Translations under genes and position numbers: made by a program | IMG/VR virus record: IMGVR_UViG_3300037245_000719 | Coordinates: 1-23,484 of that record | Direction: 5' to 3' (one strand) | From: a virus | DNA: 23,484 nt | The notes under the pieces: model-generated | What the model was told of the DNA's origin: nothing | What the model saw: only the letters and a program-made list of their open reading frames with translations | Databases searched by the model: none | Shown: positions 3,243 to 21,714 of the stretch, piece after piece | How the letters are laid out: every line of letters begins with the position of its first letter | How positions within the stretch are numbered: position 1 is the first letter of the stretch

Positions 3243-4160
3243 ATGGCCGACCAAGGCAACGTAACAACTCAAGCAATTGACGAAGCTGGACTGGCTGCTA
3301 TGGCTGCCAAGTCTGGTGACACACCTGAACATTTAGCTGCTATGGCAGCCAAGGCCGATGGCAAGGGTCCAGCTCAAGGGACCGAGAACTTATTGGCCGG
3401 GAAGTATAAGGATGAAGCTGCCCTGAAGACCGGGTTCGATTCACTCGTTGAAAAATACGGAACTGAAAAAGCTTACAAAATCCTCGAGACTGAGATGGGT
3501 AAGACAGCACAAAGTCAAGACCCTCTCAATCCAACCGATCCAATCGTTCCAAAAACAGGAGATGCACTGAATCCGGAAGGTGGTGACCCCGTCAAACCGG
3601 CAGCAGATGCTCTAACAGATCCTAACAAAGCTGCAGATGCTGCCAAAGTGGTGGCCGATGCCAAGCTTGACTTTGCAAAACTTAACGATGAGTTTGCACA
3701 GAATGGTGAGCTGTCCAAGGATAGTTACGAAAAGTTATCCAATGCTGGACTTAGCACAGAGATGGTCGACCAGTATATAGCTGGTATTGCTGCCTCAACT
3801 GAACTCCTGACAACCAAGGTTTATGGACTGGCCGGTGGTGAAGAAAACTTCAACACTCTCATCGAATGGGCTGGAGATAACCTGAATGCAGCTGAAACAC
3901 AGAACTTCAACAATGCCGTGACTGCCGGTGACATGGACAAACTTCCCATGATGGTTGAAGCATTGAAGACTCGATACGAAGCTGACCAAGGAAGTATGGG
4001 AGATCGTAAACGAGTTGAAGGTGAAGGTGTCAAGCCAGCTGTTGGTGGCTATGGTTCCAAAGCCGAGATGACTGCTGACATGAGAGATCCTCGATACAAA
4101 CTGGATGCTTCATATCGGAAGTCAGTGATGGACAAGTTGGCCAAGACAACGGCCTTCTAA
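3243..4160 (+). CDS. Capsid assembly scaffold protein, T7 gp9-like
   Basis: The product has 305 residues, close to T7 gp9 (307). It starts at an ATG with AGGAGGG eight bases upstream. The sequence is acidic and rich in Ala, Asp and Glu, with a probably disordered Pro/Asp-rich stretch near residues 95-140, as expected of a scaffold. The C-terminal region carries the pattern that I associate with T7-type scaffolds: GYGSKAEMTADMRDPRYKLD followed by ASYRKSVMDKLA. In T7 the scaffold fills the procapsid interior, shapes the shell with the connector and leaves before packaging. It lies directly after the connector operon and before the capsid gene, the normal order. What is not normal is the 622-base non-coding interval that follows. 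Confidence 0.9.
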   Translation: MADQGNVTTQAIDEAGLAAMAAKSGDTPEHLAAMAAKADGKGPAQGTENLLAGKYKDEAALKTGFDSLVEKYGTEKAYKILETEMGKTAQSQDPLNPTDPIVPKTGDALNPEGGDPVKPAADALTDPNKAADAAKVVADAKLDFAKLNDEFAQNGELSKDSYEKLSNAGLSTEMVDQYIAGIAASTELLTTKVYGLAGGEENFNTLIEWAGDNLNAAETQNFNNAVTAGDMDKLPMMVEALKTRYEADQGSMGDRKRVEGEGVKPAVGGYGSKAEMTADMRDPRYKLDASYRKSVMDKLAKTTAF

Positions 4161-4165
4161 ATAAA

Positions 4166-4237
4166 GAGGTAGCTCTCCTCCTGCAAAGGAAAGCAGGTAA
4201 AAGCCTGGAAATGTATGGTTCGAATCCTACTGCCTCA
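4166..4237 (+). ncRNA. tRNA-like element
   Basis: The span is 72 bases, the length of a tRNA. The ends GAGGTAG (4166-4172) and CTGCCTC (4230-4236) pair over seven positions with one wobble, followed by an unpaired A. The segment 4217-4227, GGTTCGAATCC, is a canonical T-loop with its inner stem. However, the T-stem needs a bulged T to complete five pairs, the middle hairpin (CCTGC at 4180-4184 with GCAGG at 4193-4197) does not present a normal seven-base anticodon loop with U33, and no normal D-arm is seen. I therefore call it tRNA-like, not a tRNA. An alternative is a remnant or attachment-site copy of a tRNA 3' end. Confidence 0.45.
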
Positions 4238-4581
4238 TGATGTTCGGTTTGGTGTTACTCGAACTAAAATAAAATTACCCTTTCATACCGGATAATTACC
4301 GGAAACCCTGAGACCCTGGGTTCCATCAGGTTAAAGAAGACCCTAACACTTTGGTACCGTTTCGAAGGAAGAAAGCCCTGGCACATGACCAGGAGTCTAA
4401 ACTTCATGGAAAACGGTACTCGATTTGGTGTCGTTTCCTACCAGCTTCGAGTTCTGCAGAGCTCCGGTAGAGTAAATGGCATACTTCTTTAGTACCCACA
4501 TCCCCTACGTATGCTCACCTGTATTCTTCAGGTGAGTCCACAACCCATCTTTGGCTACTGGCCAGAGATCCCTCCTCTCAA

Positions 4582-4622
4582 GGGACCAGCCGACAATAGC
4601 TCGTAAGGCTATGGCTGGTCCC
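4582..4622 (+). repeat. Two-part hairpin flanked by a 12-base direct repeat
   Basis: GGGACCAGCC (4582-4591) pairs perfectly with 4613-4622, and after a four-base bulge ATAGC (4596-4600) pairs with GCTAT (4608-4612) around a seven-base loop. The 12-mer TCCCTCCTCTCA occurs at 4569-4580 and again at 4619-4630. No T-run follows, so a simple intrinsic terminator is unlikely. Confidence 0.7.
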
Positions 4623-4686
4623 TCCTCTCACTCCCCCCAAATATGATAGCCCGATTAAGGCTGGCTGAGGTCAGCACTAAAGGACA

Positions 4687-4773
4687 CCTTGAATGTTGGA
4701 GACTGTGATACGGATGGATTTCGAAATGTCTATCATGTTTCATAACTATTAACCCAATCTAACATTCAAGGAG
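4687..4773 (+). promoter_or_regulatory. Long stem sequestering the capsid Shine-Dalgarno sequence
   Basis: Bases 4687-4700 pair with 4758-4771 over 14 positions with one G-U pair. The capsid ribosome binding site AAGGAG (4768-4773, nine bases before the ATG) has its first four bases inside the 3' arm. The 57-base loop contains a further 5-bp stem (4706-4710 with 4731-4735) and the palindrome ATTTCGAAAT (4718-4727). The element could limit capsid translation, or be cut by RNase III as T7 late mRNAs are. Which one applies cannot be told from sequence. Confidence 0.6.
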
Positions 4774-4782
4774 ATTATAACA

Positions 4783-5763
4783 ATGAGTGCTGCAACTGTA
4801 TCTTACTTAGGTTCGAGCAACGACACTTCCCCGGCAAATACTGCTGAGGAAAGAGCTCTGTTCCTGAAAGTGTTCTCTGGTGAAGTCTTAATGGCTTTCG
4901 AAGAGTACAATGAGTTCCTCGACAAACATTCCGTTCGAAATATCGTGTCCGGAAAACAAGCCCAGTTCCCCCTGTTCGGTCGTATGCCGGATGCCGAGTA
5001 TCATACTCCGGGTGCTGAGATCGTTGGTCAGCAGATCCCCATGGCCGAGAAGACCATAAGCATTGACAAGCTGTTAATCAGTCATGTGTTTATTCCCGTC
5101 CTGGATGATGCCATCTCTCATTACGATGTCCGTAGCAAGTATGCTGACATGTGTGGTAAGAAACTGGCCCAGACCTTCGACAATCATATTGGCCGTGAGC
5201 TGTTGCTTGCTGCTGCTTCCACGACTCCGATCACTGGTGATACCACCATGGGTGGAACCATCGTCAATGATGCTGAGTTCAATTCGGGAACTGCTGCCAC
5301 GAAACTGGCTGCTTGGGTAGAAGGCATGTTTGATGCTGCTGCCGTCCTGGACAACAAATGGGTAACTGGTAAACGGTATTGTGTCACGACTCCGGCTTAC
5401 TACTACTTCCTCGTTCAGCAAATGACCTCCAACGGTTTCTCTCTGATCAACAAAGACATCGATGGTCGTGGTTCTATTGCTGATGGTAACCTCGTAAAGG
5501 TTGCTGGTATCGATATGATTTCCTTTCCTGGCCTTCCGGTTGCTGACTACAGTGGTGAAGATTACCATGCAGTCAATGCCGAGAACACCGTCGGAATCAT
5601 CTTTACCGATCAGGCTGTTGGTACCGTCAAACTCATGGACCTGTCCGTTGAGTCCGAGTGGGACATCCGTCGACAGGGTTGGCTGACTGTGGCTAAGTAT
5701 GCCATGGGTCACGGAATCTTGCAAGGTGAATGTGCCTATCAGCTCCGTACCTCTGCTCCCTAA
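4783..5763 (+). CDS. Major capsid protein, T7 gp10-like
   Basis: The product has 326 residues (T7 gp10A has 345) and shows the T7-type capsid pattern: an N-terminal stretch ending in ALFLKVFSGEVLMAFEE, then HSVRNIVSGKQAQFPLFGR, a PGAEIVGQQIPMAEKTISID segment matching the E-loop and P-domain boundary, LDDAISHYDVRSKYADM, and near the C-terminus a W-D-I-R-R-Q-G-W-L segment. It has the HK97 fold by family. The ATG has AAGGAG nine bases upstream, but that site is part of a long stem, so expression may be controlled. The stop codon lies in the loop of a small hairpin (5756-5774), followed by a strong terminator at 5795. T7 also has its terminator T-phi directly after gene 10. I see no evidence for a frameshifted longer form. 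Confidence 0.95.
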   Translation: MSAATVSYLGSSNDTSPANTAEERALFLKVFSGEVLMAFEEYNEFLDKHSVRNIVSGKQAQFPLFGRMPDAEYHTPGAEIVGQQIPMAEKTISIDKLLISHVFIPVLDDAISHYDVRSKYADMCGKKLAQTFDNHIGRELLLAAASTTPITGDTTMGGTIVNDAEFNSGTAATKLAAWVEGMFDAAAVLDNKWVTGKRYCVTTPAYYYFLVQQMTSNGFSLINKDIDGRGSIADGNLVKVAGIDMISFPGLPVADYSGEDYHAVNAENTVGIIFTDQAVGTVKLMDLSVESEWDIRRQGWLTVAKYAMGHGILQGECAYQLRTSAP

Positions 5764-5774: not shown

Positions 5775-5794
5775 TGTAAACAATAACTAAACAA

Positions 5795-5825
5795 GGGCTG
5801 GCCATCGGTGGCTGGCCCTTTTTTT
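5795..5825 (+). terminator. Strong intrinsic terminator after the capsid gene
   Basis: Bases 5795-5804 pair with 5809-5818 over ten positions, including two adjacent G-U pairs, around a four-base loop, and seven T residues follow (5819-5825). Its position matches T-phi after gene 10 of T7. The complementary strand would have two mismatches in the stem and no T-run, so it is directional. Confidence 0.9.
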
Positions 5826-6685: not shown

Positions 6686-6702
6686 ACAATTTAAAACCCA
6701 TA

Positions 6703-6733
6703 GGGGAATGGCTCCGGCTGTTCCCCTTTTTTT
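6703..6733 (+). terminator. Strong intrinsic terminator after the decoration gene
   Basis: Bases 6703-6712 pair with 6717-6726 over ten positions around a TCCG (UNCG-type) loop closed by C-G, and seven T residues follow (6727-6733). As in the capsid terminator, the stem contains a tandem U-G/G-U step. Confidence 0.9.
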
Positions 6734-16226: not shown

Positions 16227-18185
16227 TTGGCTAATAGTTACATCAAGTATGTCGGTGACGGGTCTACTGTAGGCCCGTACTCGATTCCTTTCCCCTATAT
16301 GCATCAGTCACATATCGTTGTGACAGTGACAGGAATCGAACGGGAATTCACATGGTTATCGGCTACCACAATAGAGTTAAATTCAGCTGCCGATCTGGAT
16401 GCACCCATCTTCATTAAGAGGGTGACAAACAGAGAAGAACGGATGGTTGATTACACCGAGGGTACCCTCTTAAGTGAGGAAGTCCTCAACATTGACTCCA
16501 AACAATCCTTCTACTTAGTACAGGAGGCCTTTGATTGGATAACCTTAAACCAGGATGAAGATGGATTAGTATTCCATGATCGGGAAGCAATTCTTAATGC
16601 TATAACCGGATGGGTCGATGAGAGTGTACTGACAGAAGAAGTCAGTGCCAACCTTGACTACGTCATCAATCGACTGGTGGCTGAAGATGCTATCTACCGA
16701 GTTGTTGATGGAGACATGTATGAAGAAGGTATATTGGAAAGTCCTCTCCGGAGGATCACCTATTCTGAGTTCGACTGCATTGCAACTGATGCAAAAATAG
16801 TCCTGCATGCTGGAAAGATTGAAGACCTCGAGACTGAGGGTGGAGATCTGGAAACCAGAATCACTTCTGCTGAGATCGACATTGATGGTGCTGAGGCTGC
16901 TATTGTTTTGACTGTGGCTGACATCGTCATCAACGGAGAAGATATCACTTATAATGCTGGTGAGATTTCACTGCTGACAAATGAGTACATGGTCCGGCTG
17001 GATAATAACGGATATGTTGCTGGCTTCGGTTTATATAATGATGGTGAGGGTGAGTCTCAGTTCATTATAAATGTAGATAAGTTTGCACTCATACAGAATG
17101 ATGGGACGGGACTGAAGACTCCGTTCGTTGTCTCTGAAGGAGTTGTAGCAATCGATGGTACGTTGATGGTCCTGGGTTCTATCTGGGGCAACAAGATTGC
17201 TGCTAATGCCATCACGGCTGAGAAGATCAATGTCTCAACCCTGAGTGCTATTGCTGCAAACATTGGTACAGTTACTGCCGGTGTGATCCAATCAACAAAC
17301 TGGGGTCCGACTGCTGGAAGTCATTTCAACTTGGCAACCGGCAAGCTGCAGATCAACTCAGCTGAGGGAATCACAATTAATGGTGGTGGAGATATCTCCC
17401 TGGTAGCTGGTGAGGATGATGCTGCCGAGATAACGTTTTCTGGTGGTGCCAGCTATCCTGATATGCATATCAGTATGCATGATGCAAATAAGACCTTATG
17501 CTTTTACCCTGATGTGGCTGATGACATGAGAGTGTACTTCGGGTTTGATCGATCCACATACTCTCAAAGGAGACTGGAGATCTTCAGAGTGGATTGTACT
17601 GCTCAGGCAGTTATGGAAGTTGTTGATCCGGACACCAAGGCTGAGACTCAATTTGCTATGTATGACACCTTCATATACCTAAGATCAAAGGCCTCTGCAT
17701 TAGGGTCTTACACAGGCTTCTACATAAATCCTGATTATATCAAAGTCATAGGTGACATGCATCCCTACGGACATAAGTTTGTTGATTTAGGGAGAAACGA
17801 TTTGGCCTACGATCATGTGTATGCTGATCACCATGATAATGTAGCTGACATGCCATGGTTCGATGACCGGAAGGATAAGGATGGCAACGTGGTTTCTGTA
17901 GATGACTTAGCAGTCATTCATGGGATCAAGCCTTCAAACAATTACGATCCACTCACAGGCTTTCGAACCATCAACGACTCGACTCTACCCACATGGCTGG
18001 TAACGAAACACCATAAGGATGGAGAAGAGAAGAATGAAGATGGTGACAGAATCCGTTCGTGGGAAAGGGGTGATGTGGCTGTCAATCCTGATGGCAAACC
18101 CTACCTTGATCTGATGGTGATGATCGGCCTCCTAATGGGAGCTGTCCGTCAACTTGACAATAAAATAGAAGCAATGAAAGGATAA
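16227..18185 (+). CDS. Tail fibre: gp17-type N-terminus with gpJ/DUF1983-like middle
   Basis: The product has 652 residues and starts at a TTG eight bases after AAGGAGG (16212-16218). The next ATG is at residue 24, inside the conserved domain, so TTG is the start. Residues 1 to about 95 match the T7 gp17 tail-attachment domain (YSIPFPYMHQSHIVVTVTGI, then IFIKRVTNREERMVDYTEG, then SKQSFYLVQEAFD). About residues 190-245 form a helical coiled-coil-like linker. About 253-345 (EYMVRLDNNGYVAGFGLYND, then FIINVDKFALIQ, GSIWGNKIAANAITAEKI and AIAANIGTVTAGVI) resemble the DUF1983 region of siphophage host-specificity proteins. The last 130 residues form a module shared with the next gene. It binds the host surface by inference. 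Confidence 0.88.
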   Translation: MANSYIKYVGDGSTVGPYSIPFPYMHQSHIVVTVTGIEREFTWLSATTIELNSAADLDAPIFIKRVTNREERMVDYTEGTLLSEEVLNIDSKQSFYLVQEAFDWITLNQDEDGLVFHDREAILNAITGWVDESVLTEEVSANLDYVINRLVAEDAIYRVVDGDMYEEGILESPLRRITYSEFDCIATDAKIVLHAGKIEDLETEGGDLETRITSAEIDIDGAEAAIVLTVADIVINGEDITYNAGEISLLTNEYMVRLDNNGYVAGFGLYNDGEGESQFIINVDKFALIQNDGTGLKTPFVVSEGVVAIDGTLMVLGSIWGNKIAANAITAEKINVSTLSAIAANIGTVTAGVIQSTNWGPTAGSHFNLATGKLQINSAEGITINGGGDISLVAGEDDAAEITFSGGASYPDMHISMHDANKTLCFYPDVADDMRVYFGFDRSTYSQRRLEIFRVDCTAQAVMEVVDPDTKAETQFAMYDTFIYLRSKASALGSYTGFYINPDYIKVIGDMHPYGHKFVDLGRNDLAYDHVYADHHDNVADMPWFDDRKDKDGNVVSVDDLAVIHGIKPSNNYDPLTGFRTINDSTLPTWLVTKHHKDGEEKNEDGDRIRSWERGDVAVNPDGKPYLDLMVMIGLLMGAVRQLDNKIEAMKG

Positions 18186-18189
18186 ATAA

Positions 18190-21100
18190 ATGGCTACAAT
18201 CGTAACAAGAGCTGGTAAGGGTGAACCTCTTACTGTCACAGAGCACGATGCCAACCTGACAAACCTGAATGATGCTATCGGCTCGAGTGAGACTGATGTC
18301 TCTGATCTTGACGATAGGATCACGGTTAACGAGGGAGAAATCGATACTCTGCAGACCGATGTGGATGCTGCCGAGGTTGATATTGATGACCTCGAGACCG
18401 AGGCTGGTCTGAATACCACTCACCGTGGAGTTGTGACTGGTAATCCTCATGCTGTCACTCAGTCTGATGTTGGACTGAATGCCCTGACTAATGAAGCTCA
18501 ACTTGTTAGGGGAGCTGAAGACTATTCAAAGTTCGATCCGAAAACGTCGATAGCTGATGACGATACCTTTCTGATTGAAGACTCTGAGGATGCTGAATCG
18601 AAGAAATACATAACTGGCAAGATGATCAAATATGCCCAAACAAATGGTTTCCTGGCTGGCTCTGGAGCTGAGCTGGATTCCTTATTCACAATCACTGAAG
18701 CTGCAGGAAAAGTCCACCTGAACTGGATTGCTGATTGCACGTACTGTGTTGGTGGTAAGTTCTTTACCATCGATGATAACTTAGAGATCGACATCACTGA
18801 TGTACATGGACTGCATTGGATCTATTTCGATAACACCGGTACCTTGAAGATCCAGGCTCCGGGTGGAAGCATTGCTGCTTTGATCCTGTCCAACTGTCTG
18901 GTGGCTGCTGTGTACTGGGAGGCCACTGGTAATTCTGTACTCAGACTGCTGGATGAACGGCATGGTGCTGATATGTCTCCGGCAACTCATTACCATTTAC
19001 ATGAAACCCTTGGTGCCATGTGGGAGCAGGGATTCACTCCGGCTGCCCTGGATGTTGATGGGTCTGGTACCGATGCTTCCCATGCTCAGTTTGATATCAG
19101 TGCCGGTGAATACCACGACGAAGATATTGAGCATTCATATGGTGGAGAAGTTAATGCCTGGGTACACACCTTCTTTAGACAAGGCTCCGGTGGACCATGG
19201 TTCCAGATGTCTGCCTCTAATGGTTTCCCGTTAGCTGGTGGTGTGATTGGTGATCGGCTCGACTGGAATGATTATAATGGTGGAGCATGGCAGTTGCAAG
19301 AAGTGGGGAACAATCAATTCGTCCTATCTCATTACTTTGCTTTAGGTGACGAGATTCTTTGTATAATGGGACAGGCTACCCACATCTCTGTTGTTGCTGC
19401 CCGGTCGGCTGCCAGTACGGAAATGAACTCGTTGATCACTGATGGCTTACCTATGCCTGAGATGGTCCCTCTGTTCTCGATCCTGTGGCAGACAAATGAT
19501 GGCTATTCGAATGCACTGGCTGCCCGTATCCGATCCGTTGACGATGGTGAGTATATCGACTGGAGAGGTGAGGATCTTGTGTCCTTTGCTGGCTCCACCA
19601 TAGTTGACACCATTCAGTTCAATACCGACTTTGCAAATGGTAATGCTGAAGGTCGGCTGCAGTGGAATGCTGAAGACGGTACCCTCGAGTATGGGCTGCC
19701 GGGTGGAAACGTTAATCTTCAAATAGGTCAGGAACATGTCCTCAGATGTGCAAATGCTTCTGGTGATGATATTGCTGATGGCTCAGTGGTCTATGTGTCT
19801 GGAGTTTCAGGGAATAGGCCGACTATCGAGTTAGCTGATGCTGATCCTACGGATTCAATTCCGGAAGCTGTTGTGCTCGGGATGACAACTGAGTTGATAT
19901 CAAATAATGGGACAGGCTATGTTACTCTTCTTGGTCTGGTCCGAGATGTGGATACCGATGGGATGACCCCTGGTACCATGCTTTGGCTGTCTGTAACACC
20001 TGGAGAGTATACCGAAACAAAGCCAACGGCTCCTAACCGAAGTATTGCTATTGGGCTGGTTATTGTGGCTCATGCTGATACTGGGATAATCTTCGTAAAC
20101 ACAACCGTAATAGCCCCGGTGATGGCATCTCCGGATGTCCTGGCTGGTGCTCCTGCTGATGGTCAAGTATTACAGTTCGTTAATTCAAATGGTAGGTTCG
20201 AGCTTTCGGATGACGTAGCAAGCAACACGGCTGCCCGGCATGCTGAATCTCATGCACAGGCCAGTCATAATGACACCAATGCAACCGGTGCTGAGCTGGA
20301 AGAGCTGACCGGTGCTGGAGAAACAATACTTCATTATCATAGTATGCTGAAAGATGATGCTGAGGTTGGTGCCCTCTATACAAAGGATGGTGCCATGCAG
20401 TTGAACTTCAATGGTCTAAAAGCCATGGTGACAAACATATCCGGGATATCGATTGTGGATACGGATGGAGCAGTGCCATACATTTACTTTTATGACGATG
20501 ACTCCAACCTGTTGGCTCAGTTCCGACACCGGACAACCACCTTAACATTAGGTAATAAAGTTGATGGTGGTCATACTGAGTTCCGTGGTGAGAATACGGC
20601 AAGTGACGAAGTGTTGCTGATCGACATGGACCCTGATGCTGGTGTAATCCTGTATTGTGAAGGGCTCCAGAATGCTCAGTTCATACCTCATGGGGTGAAC
20701 CTTCGAAGTATTGATAGTACGGATGTCTACCTCAATTTTGAGAGTTCCGTGGGTCTCCAACAGGCCCGGTTTAAGTCCTCAGCTGGTCTATTCGAAATGA
20801 AGAACTTTCACTTCGGGGGTCACGTATACCTAAAGGCAACGAACACTGGGGAAGTCGAAAAGCATATCCTGGATGGTGATCCCGATGCTGGTGTAGTGCT
20901 GAACTTCACAGGGTTGAAGTCCTTTTCAACAAGGGCAAGTGGTATTGATGTTTATGATACTGCTGGCTCGGATATACAGATCAGGCTCAATAACTCTGCT
21001 GATACTCATCGTGCTACCTTTAAACATACCGGCTCTTACGTCCAGATCAACGACGAGATGGACGGTGGTGCATTCTGGATGACTGCAAAGAAGACCGACT

Positions 21101-21714
21101 CTACTGTTTACTGGGTTGGGTGGAGTCCGAACACTCGAGCATTCTATTCCTCACTTTCTAAGGGATTGGATCTTGGCCGAAGTGGAACTCCATGGGATAC
21201 AGCTTATGCCGATGACTTTGAGAACATAGCTGATTTCTTCTTCATGGATGACCGGAAGGACAAGGATGGAAAGATTGTCCCGATAGACGATGGTGCTGTA
21301 ATTGAAGGCATTGTGCCTTCTGGTGATTACGATCCTATTACTGGATTGAGGATCATCAACGATTCGTCTCTGCCAACTTGGCTCGTTTCAAAACATAAAC
21401 ATGCCGGTGAAGATAAGGATGAGGCCGGTGATGTAGTAAGGACGTGGGAGAAAGGTGACATCTGCAGGACTGATGATGGTAAACCTTACCTCTCCCTGAA
21501 GACCATGATCAGCTTACTGATGGGTGCTTCCCGGCAGACCAATGGTCGGGTGAAGACTCTTGAAGCCCAAATCCAGATATTGGATGATCGACGGATTTCT
21601 AATGAGGCCACCGTACAGAATCAGATGCTGAGCATGTTGGCAAAGAACTATGCACTGCAGGGTCGTGTTGAAGAGCTCGAGTCTGCTAAACAGGATAAAG
21701 AGGAGAAAGAGTAA
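18190..21714 (+). CDS. Second large fibre / receptor-binding protein
   Basis: The product has 1174 residues and starts four bases after the first fibre gene. The N-terminus MATIVTRAGKGEPLTVTEHD is a common start of phage fibre-type proteins. About residues 27-75 are acidic heptad-like coiled coil. GNPHAVTQSDVGLNALTNEA (about 84-103) is a repeat motif of many fibres. About 531-645 is a beta domain of a type often found in fibres (GSVVYVSGVSG, then GMTPGTMLWLSVTPGEY). Residues 732-980 are three tandem repeats of about 83 residues. About 993-1125 is the C-terminal module shared with the first fibre, followed here by an extra coiled coil to the end. It probably binds a second receptor or forms a tip on the first fibre. 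The ribosome binding site is weak (AAAGGA). Confidence 0.8.
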   Translation: MATIVTRAGKGEPLTVTEHDANLTNLNDAIGSSETDVSDLDDRITVNEGEIDTLQTDVDAAEVDIDDLETEAGLNTTHRGVVTGNPHAVTQSDVGLNALTNEAQLVRGAEDYSKFDPKTSIADDDTFLIEDSEDAESKKYITGKMIKYAQTNGFLAGSGAELDSLFTITEAAGKVHLNWIADCTYCVGGKFFTIDDNLEIDITDVHGLHWIYFDNTGTLKIQAPGGSIAALILSNCLVAAVYWEATGNSVLRLLDERHGADMSPATHYHLHETLGAMWEQGFTPAALDVDGSGTDASHAQFDISAGEYHDEDIEHSYGGEVNAWVHTFFRQGSGGPWFQMSASNGFPLAGGVIGDRLDWNDYNGGAWQLQEVGNNQFVLSHYFALGDEILCIMGQATHISVVAARSAASTEMNSLITDGLPMPEMVPLFSILWQTNDGYSNALAARIRSVDDGEYIDWRGEDLVSFAGSTIVDTIQFNTDFANGNAEGRLQWNAEDGTLEYGLPGGNVNLQIGQEHVLRCANASGDDIADGSVVYVSGVSGNRPTIELADADPTDSIPEAVVLGMTTELISNNGTGYVTLLGLVRDVDTDGMTPGTMLWLSVTPGEYTETKPTAPNRSIAIGLVIVAHADTGIIFVNTTVIAPVMASPDVLAGAPADGQVLQFVNSNGRFELSDDVASNTAARHAESHAQASHNDTNATGAELEELTGAGETILHYHSMLKDDAEVGALYTKDGAMQLNFNGLKAMVTNISGISIVDTDGAVPYIYFYDDDSNLLAQFRHRTTTLTLGNKVDGGHTEFRGENTASDEVLLIDMDPDAGVILYCEGLQNAQFIPHGVNLRSIDSTDVYLNFESSVGLQQARFKSSAGLFEMKNFHFGGHVYLKATNTGEVEKHILDGDPDAGVVLNFTGLKSFSTRASGIDVYDTAGSDIQIRLNNSADTHRATFKHTGSYVQINDEMDGGAFWMTAKKTDSTVYWVGWSPNTRAFYSSLSKGLDLGRSGTPWDTAYADDFENIADFFFMDDRKDKDGKIVPIDDGAVIEGIVPSGDYDPITGLRIINDSSLPTWLVSKHKHAGEDKDEAGDVVRTWEKGDICRTDDGKPYLSLKTMISLLMGASRQTNGRVKTLEAQIQILDDRRISNEATVQNQMLSMLAKNYALQGRVEELESAKQDKEEKE

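Follow-up and report, generated by a model that had tools for sequence, protein, structure and literature searches.

What lies in the 622 nt that separate the scaffold gene from the major capsid gene of this T7-like phage? In the window, by which we mean the whole stretch of 23 484 nt that was analysed, the gap that opens after the scaffold stop (4160) and ends before the capsid ATG (4783) is exactly 622 nt long (4161–4782), and the remaining gaps of the late region are all at most 119 nt. The first-pass annotation, which described a structured non-coding gap of 622 bases among gaps of less than 120 bases, was accurate in both respects. The plus strand of the interval contains no open reading frame of at least 40 amino acids, and the minus strand contains two, of 47 and 44 amino acids. 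Neither a match to a sigma-70-like promoter pattern nor long direct repeats of the kind that mark phage promoters are seen within the gap. The capsid protein that follows is 44% identical to the major capsid protein of phage LUZ100 (tblastn). The features discussed below are collected in Table 1. Elsewhere in the window, strong intrinsic-terminator-like hairpins with T-runs are present after the capsid gene (5793–5820) and after the next gene (6702–6727), and two adjacent long open reading frames (16227–18185 and 18190–21714) share a similar C-terminal region, DDRKDKDG...YDPxTGxRxINDSxLPTWLVxKH, which is perhaps a duplicated tail-fibre domain.

Table 1. Positions of the features in and around the scaffold–capsid interval of the window.
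Feature	Position	Strand	Basis
Scaffold gene	3243–4160		
tRNA-like structure	4166–4236	+	Acceptor and T-arm criterion; cloverleaf-like MFE fold
Nested hairpins of the first-pass annotation (4354–4362/4411–4419 and others)	4339–4480	+	Perfect 9 bp repeat; z = −1.85
Leader hairpin 1, AUCUUUGGCU-ACU-GGCCAGAGAU	4547–4569	+	Fold; z = −5.5 for 4540–4640
CU-rich unpaired linker, CCCTCCTCTCA	4570–4580	+	Read from the sequence
Leader hairpin 2, AGGGACCAGCC ... GGCUGGUCCCU	4581–4623	+	Fold; pair counts in relatives
Capsid-leader motif, extended form: AGCCC, GCUGGC-UGAG-GUCAGC (4660–4675), GGACACC (4682–4688)	4648–4688	+	
Helix CCUUGAAUGUUGGA (4687–4700)/UCUAACAUUCAAGG (4758–4771) over the capsid Shine–Dalgarno sequence AAGGAG (4768–4773)	4687–4771	+	MFE and centroid folds
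Major capsid gene, led by the structured RNA	4783–5763	+	tblastn against T7-type capsid proteins

The minimum free energy of the interval is −199.4 kcal mol−1, compared with −165.1 ± 8.3 kcal mol−1 for shuffled sequences (z = −4.1), and none of 20 shuffles folds as well. An energy no lower than that of shuffled sequence, which had been named in advance as grounds for giving up the idea of a structured RNA, is therefore not what is observed. The local fold is strongest at 4540–4640 (z = −5.5) and 4640–4785 (z = −4.2), while the stability of the tRNA-like stretch 4161–4260 does not rise above that of shuffles (z = +0.3). The nested repeats to which attention had been drawn earlier are present as quoted, with a perfect 9 bp match between GTACCGTTT (4354–4362) and AAACGGTAC (4411–4419) and with GAAG (4364–4367) pairing with CTTC (4402–4405). 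The local fold of this stretch (4340–4480) is weak (z = −1.85) and no homologue of it (4339–4480) was found in any relative. A DNA search with the interval across the phage collection gave no match. The Rfam covariance models, including those for GOLLD and ROOL, gave no match at the gathering score in the window and none at E values up to 5 in the segment 4000–4900. Because relatives retain the 3′ part only and because Rfam contains no match, the interval is a composite of three parts: 4166–4236, 4237–4546 and 4547–4782. The second of these is structured, and no homologue of it was found.

The third part can be followed through the relatives found via the capsid protein. These comprise two identical copies (L001 and L002), a group with about 55–61% capsid identity (L003, L085–L089, L249, L252 and L253) and many phages at 45% or below. 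The gap shrinks from 622 nt in the window to 484 nt in L003 and 268–453 nt in L085–L089 (268 nt in L085), and is commonly 130–200 nt in more distant phages. Within the clade the leader has a common layout, in which hairpin 1, a CU-rich linker, hairpin 2, a second CU-rich linker, AGCCC, the motif hairpin, GGACACC and the anti-Shine–Dalgarno helix follow each other. A counterpart of hairpin 1 with another sequence stands at the same place in L085–L088, L003 and L249, the linker is represented by TCTCCTCTCCTCTT or CCCTCCTACTCC, and the hairpin 1 and hairpin 2 regions of L085–L088 and L003 fold with z values of −2.0 to −7.4. The basal pairs of hairpin 2 are retained in 64 of 64 cases over eight relatives, with two-sided changes at all eight positions. 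The loop of the motif hairpin is UGAG, UGCG or CGAG, and CCUUNAA pairs with the capsid Shine–Dalgarno sequence. The 10 bp core of this last helix is retained with compensatory changes in L085–L089, L249 and L253, and 7–8 of the 10 pairs are found in L003 and L252. Counted over the clade, pairing is kept in 45/45 cells for hairpin 1, 64/64 for hairpin 2, 35/35 for the motif hairpin and 65/70 for the anti-Shine–Dalgarno helix, percentages that are partly circular for the hairpins since their strands were picked from folds. Two-sided changes occur at most hairpin positions and at half of those of the anti-Shine–Dalgarno helix. The latter helix and the motif hairpin are the stronger evidence because they are anchored by conserved sequence.

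The 3′ 240 nt are thus a conserved structured capsid leader, the stems of which have been rewritten yet remain complementary in the closest relatives, and its YNMG-loop hairpin is flanked by GCC...GAYA[AC]C. The suggestion of an unusually long capsid leader holds for these 240 nt, with their homologous leaders and compensatory changes. The covariation looked for in homologous intervals is present as compensatory change in the 3′ leader helices. The existence of a structured capsid leader with a tRNA-like start is well supported.

The core of this leader recurs far outside the clade. Its short form (model R1, built here) reads RC-C-[C NNN YNMG NNN G]-AYAA-Y and lies about 100 nt 5′ of the capsid ATG. 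The core is found about 60–130 nt before this codon in relatives with capsid identities as low as about 37% and includes invariant unpaired bases. Of 155 distinct T7-like capsid leaders, 90 have the strict pattern, compared with 0.23% of shuffles. For 35 distinct copies, the share of cells that pair is 90% (64% when shuffled) and the covariation score is 0.74 (0.23 when shuffled); the P1 pairs, which had no role in the selection, also covary. When run on whole records, R1 gives one strong match (E below 10−3) per genome in 11 of 25 records, and wherever the matches were compared with capsid coordinates they stand before the capsid gene. No R1 match is found in the leaders of T7, SP6, phiKMV, KP34 and gh-1, in which the gap is short. 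The window leader is not matched by R1 either, its best scores being at chance level (E of 4.4 or worse), and membership of the window therefore relies on an extended form with a longer P2: [AG]CC[CT], a spacer, a YNMG hairpin of at least 5 bp, a second spacer and GGAYA[AC]C, all of it 5′ of the capsid gene. This form is present in the window, L085–L088, LUZ100 and L096 and in none of 10 000 shuffles; since the pattern was set after viewing the window clade, the more independent evidence comes from LUZ100 and L096. Judged from its sequence, the core of the window leader belongs in this extended form to the wide T7-like capsid-leader motif. The motif is not among the Rfam families, and a search of L006 against Rfam returned only one sub-threshold match at chance level. 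Our search of the open-licence literature returned no account of the motif, nor of tRNA-like elements at the scaffold–capsid site. In the L004, L006, L016, L022 and L101 leaders another hairpin recurs just 5′ of the motif; it reads CAC...GUG, with ACGC or a similar sequence after it.

At the other end of the interval, an acceptor-like helix is formed by GAGGTA(G) at 4166–4171(72) and TGCCTC at 4231–4236. It abuts a T-arm (4213–4230, GTA(T)GG-TTCGAAT-CCTAC) of which the loop TTCGAAT fits the tRNA consensus, and the fold also has two short arms. A T-loop TTCRANY closed by a G–C pair, with a 5 bp T-stem (one bulge allowed) abutting an acceptor of at least 6 bp, occurs only here in the whole window on either strand, and in 6 of 20 000 sequences obtained by dinucleotide shuffling of the interval. 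The element falls outside the tRNA class, as its acceptor has 6 bp instead of 7, its anticodon-like loop 4 nt instead of 7 and its T-stem a bulge. The tRNA-like fold that had been noticed at the start of the interval is thus borne out by sequence and shape, while ARAGORN finds no tRNA gene in the window and the Rfam tRNA model (RF00005) no match. A tRNA call on the element by ARAGORN in relaxed mode (-ps70) was discarded, as this mode makes 108 calls in the window and more than two per shuffle. The closest relatives of the window phage lack the element, which is therefore not essential.

The slot between scaffold and capsid genes is occupied in a similar way in other phages. True tRNAs are found there in LUZ100, RHEph01, L018 and L074, and tRNA-like structures in Syn5, P60, P-SSP7 and many cyanophage contigs. 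A T-arm is present in 57 of 93 cyanophage leaders, and in 47 of these 57 an acceptor helix of at least 5 bp abuts it, which happens by chance in 21% of cases with shuffled and 32% with swapped upstream sequence. On an alignment made from sequence only, the pairs of these elements covary: 51 cells show two-sided change, compared with 14 in shuffles; the T-stem, and not the acceptor, was partly a criterion for their selection. The 5′ 71 nt of the interval form a tRNA-like structure, and they occupy the position at which related phages have tRNAs or tRNA-like structures. Several other features were seen in these leaders. In about 28 of the 93 cyanophage leaders (L212, L146, L138, L220 and L225 among them) the site of the tRNA-like element is taken instead by a hairpin whose loop, CACCUCAGAGUCGGA, is conserved. 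Matches to the Glutamine-II (downstream-peptide) riboswitch stand 5′ of the tRNA-like element and leader in L114 (P-SSP7; 2023–2076), L216 (313–365) and L143 (990–1042), that of L114 being inside the scaffold–capsid region just past a small annotated open reading frame. The L145 leader has, about 190–130 nt 5′ of the capsid ATG, a near-complete tRNA-like fold that includes an anticodon-like loop UCUUAUA; the call made on it by relaxed ARAGORN (anticodon UUA) is not trustworthy, given the more than two calls per shuffle.

Published RNA ends of LUZ100 bear on what such an element may do. The 3′ ends obtained by long-read RNA sequencing, including T14 and T15, are listed by the authors as termination sites, and a window from −60 to +40 is described around each (PMC10134795). 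Read by this convention, with T16, an intrinsic terminator, used to calibrate the offset, T14 maps 2–3 nt 5′ of the tRNA, and T15 maps to the 5′ edge of a leader hairpin of the CAC...GUG type, about 160 nt ahead of the capsid ATG. Contrary to the listing of the authors, we read both ends as processing products. We infer that the interval acts, with a probability of roughly 0.5, as a composite cis-acting RNA before the capsid gene: a tRNA-punctuated, processed and translationally controlled leader. The tRNA or its mimic would be a punctuation mark in the late polycistronic transcript, at which tRNA-processing enzymes (RNase P and possibly RNase Z) would cut and so set the capsid message apart from the genes for scaffold and portal. 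The freed message would keep a structured 5′ region that resists decay, and the anti-Shine–Dalgarno helix of the window clade together with the hairpins may set or time capsid translation. More tentatively, many T7-like phages could use a tRNA, or a non-decoding mimic evolved from one, as a dedicated RNase P/Z cutting signal that frees the capsid mRNA together with its conserved structured leader.

A serious, if somewhat less probable, alternative is that the leader is mainly a translational switch, in which a ligand or a protein (capsid, scaffold or host factor) on the YNMG hairpin opens or closes the Shine–Dalgarno helix. The masking helix is indeed conserved with compensatory change in the window clade, and the invariant unpaired bases of the motif core resemble those of a binding site. 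However, in leaders inspected by eye the masking helix is specific to the clade, whereas the motif is spread far more widely, and we know of no candidate ligand for it.

A further alternative, of modest probability, is that the tRNA-like element is a decayed cargo tRNA in a permissive insertion slot, with no present function and with the downstream leader real and separate. The slot does accept cargo in other phages, in the form of tRNAs, of psbA/hli and a small open reading frame in P-SSP7 and of small genes in others. The window copy itself has a bulged T-stem, a 6 bp acceptor and no 7 nt anticodon loop; it stands about 410 nt from the motif and is missing from the nearest relatives. Yet cyanophage elements without a usable anticodon arm still covary in the acceptor and T-stems, which argues against neutral decay, as this would not keep pairing.

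That the interval is a discrete ornate non-coding RNA of the GOLLD or ROOL type, as the first-pass annotation had proposed among other options on account of its size, ornate fold and tRNA-like start, is very improbable: membership finds no backing in Rfam even at the permissive threshold, and a single RNA of 500–600 nt does not agree with homologues that keep only the 3′ 240 nt, running into the capsid ribosome site, nor with a total length that varies from 622 nt (window) through 484 nt (L003) to 268 nt (L085). Phage attachment sites are often copies of tRNA 3′ ends, and on this general ground the element might be one, an idea that we reject as scarcely credible because the stems of such elements covary, and because they vary from phage to phage where a copied tRNA end would match a single host tRNA. 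The attachment-linked tRNA-Leu of LUZ100 adjoins the integrase gene elsewhere in the genome (PMC10134795) and is not in the scaffold–capsid slot.

No product of a T7-like phage is more abundant than its capsid protein, and to our knowledge there is no answer as to how phages without short leaders of the T7 type separate and boost the capsid message. If correct, the tRNA-punctuated leader would offer a route based on RNA in place of the local promoter and RNase III sites that T7 uses. T7-like phages that infect cyanobacteria, marine bacteria, Rhizobium, Pseudomonas and Bordetella have the covarying motif in common; without an Rfam entry and accompanied by tRNAs or tRNA-like elements, it would be a new family of cis-regulatory RNA. 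The punctuation of phage late mRNA by tRNAs would become testable in cultured LUZ100, Syn5, P60 and P-SSP7.

Among known systems, LUZ100 and RHEph01 (Autographiviridae) share with the window the slot and the order of tRNA, leader motif and capsid gene, and in LUZ100 RNA 3′ ends fall in this same slot at the 5′ edges of the tRNA and the leader hairpin; both differ in having complete tRNA-Asn genes, in contrast to the window element, which is only tRNA-like and has no proper anticodon loop. The elements found here in Syn5, P60, P-SSP7 and their relatives share with that of the window an acceptor-like helix that stacks on a T-arm, the loop of which reads T[TG]CRANY, 5′ of the leader motif. In Syn5, P-SSP7 and many of their cyanophage relatives the element stands at most about 40 nt from the motif, with one arm or a GGUG linker alone, while that of P60 has a cloverleaf fold like the window element and lies about 90 nt from the motif, compared with about 410 nt and two arms in the window. 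GOLLD and ROOL are similar in size range and tRNA association, but their covariance models find no match and the window structure is continuous with the capsid leader. The T7 gene 10 leader with its phi10 promoter and the putative RNase III site R10 of gh-1 are likewise regulatory RNA just 5′ of the capsid gene, in gaps that are short (about 93 and 100 nt) and contain neither the YNMG motif nor a tRNA-like element. Stem-loops at the 5′ terminus, as in ompA, stabilize mRNA, and by analogy the outcome proposed here would be the same, with a structured 5′ end shielding an abundant message.
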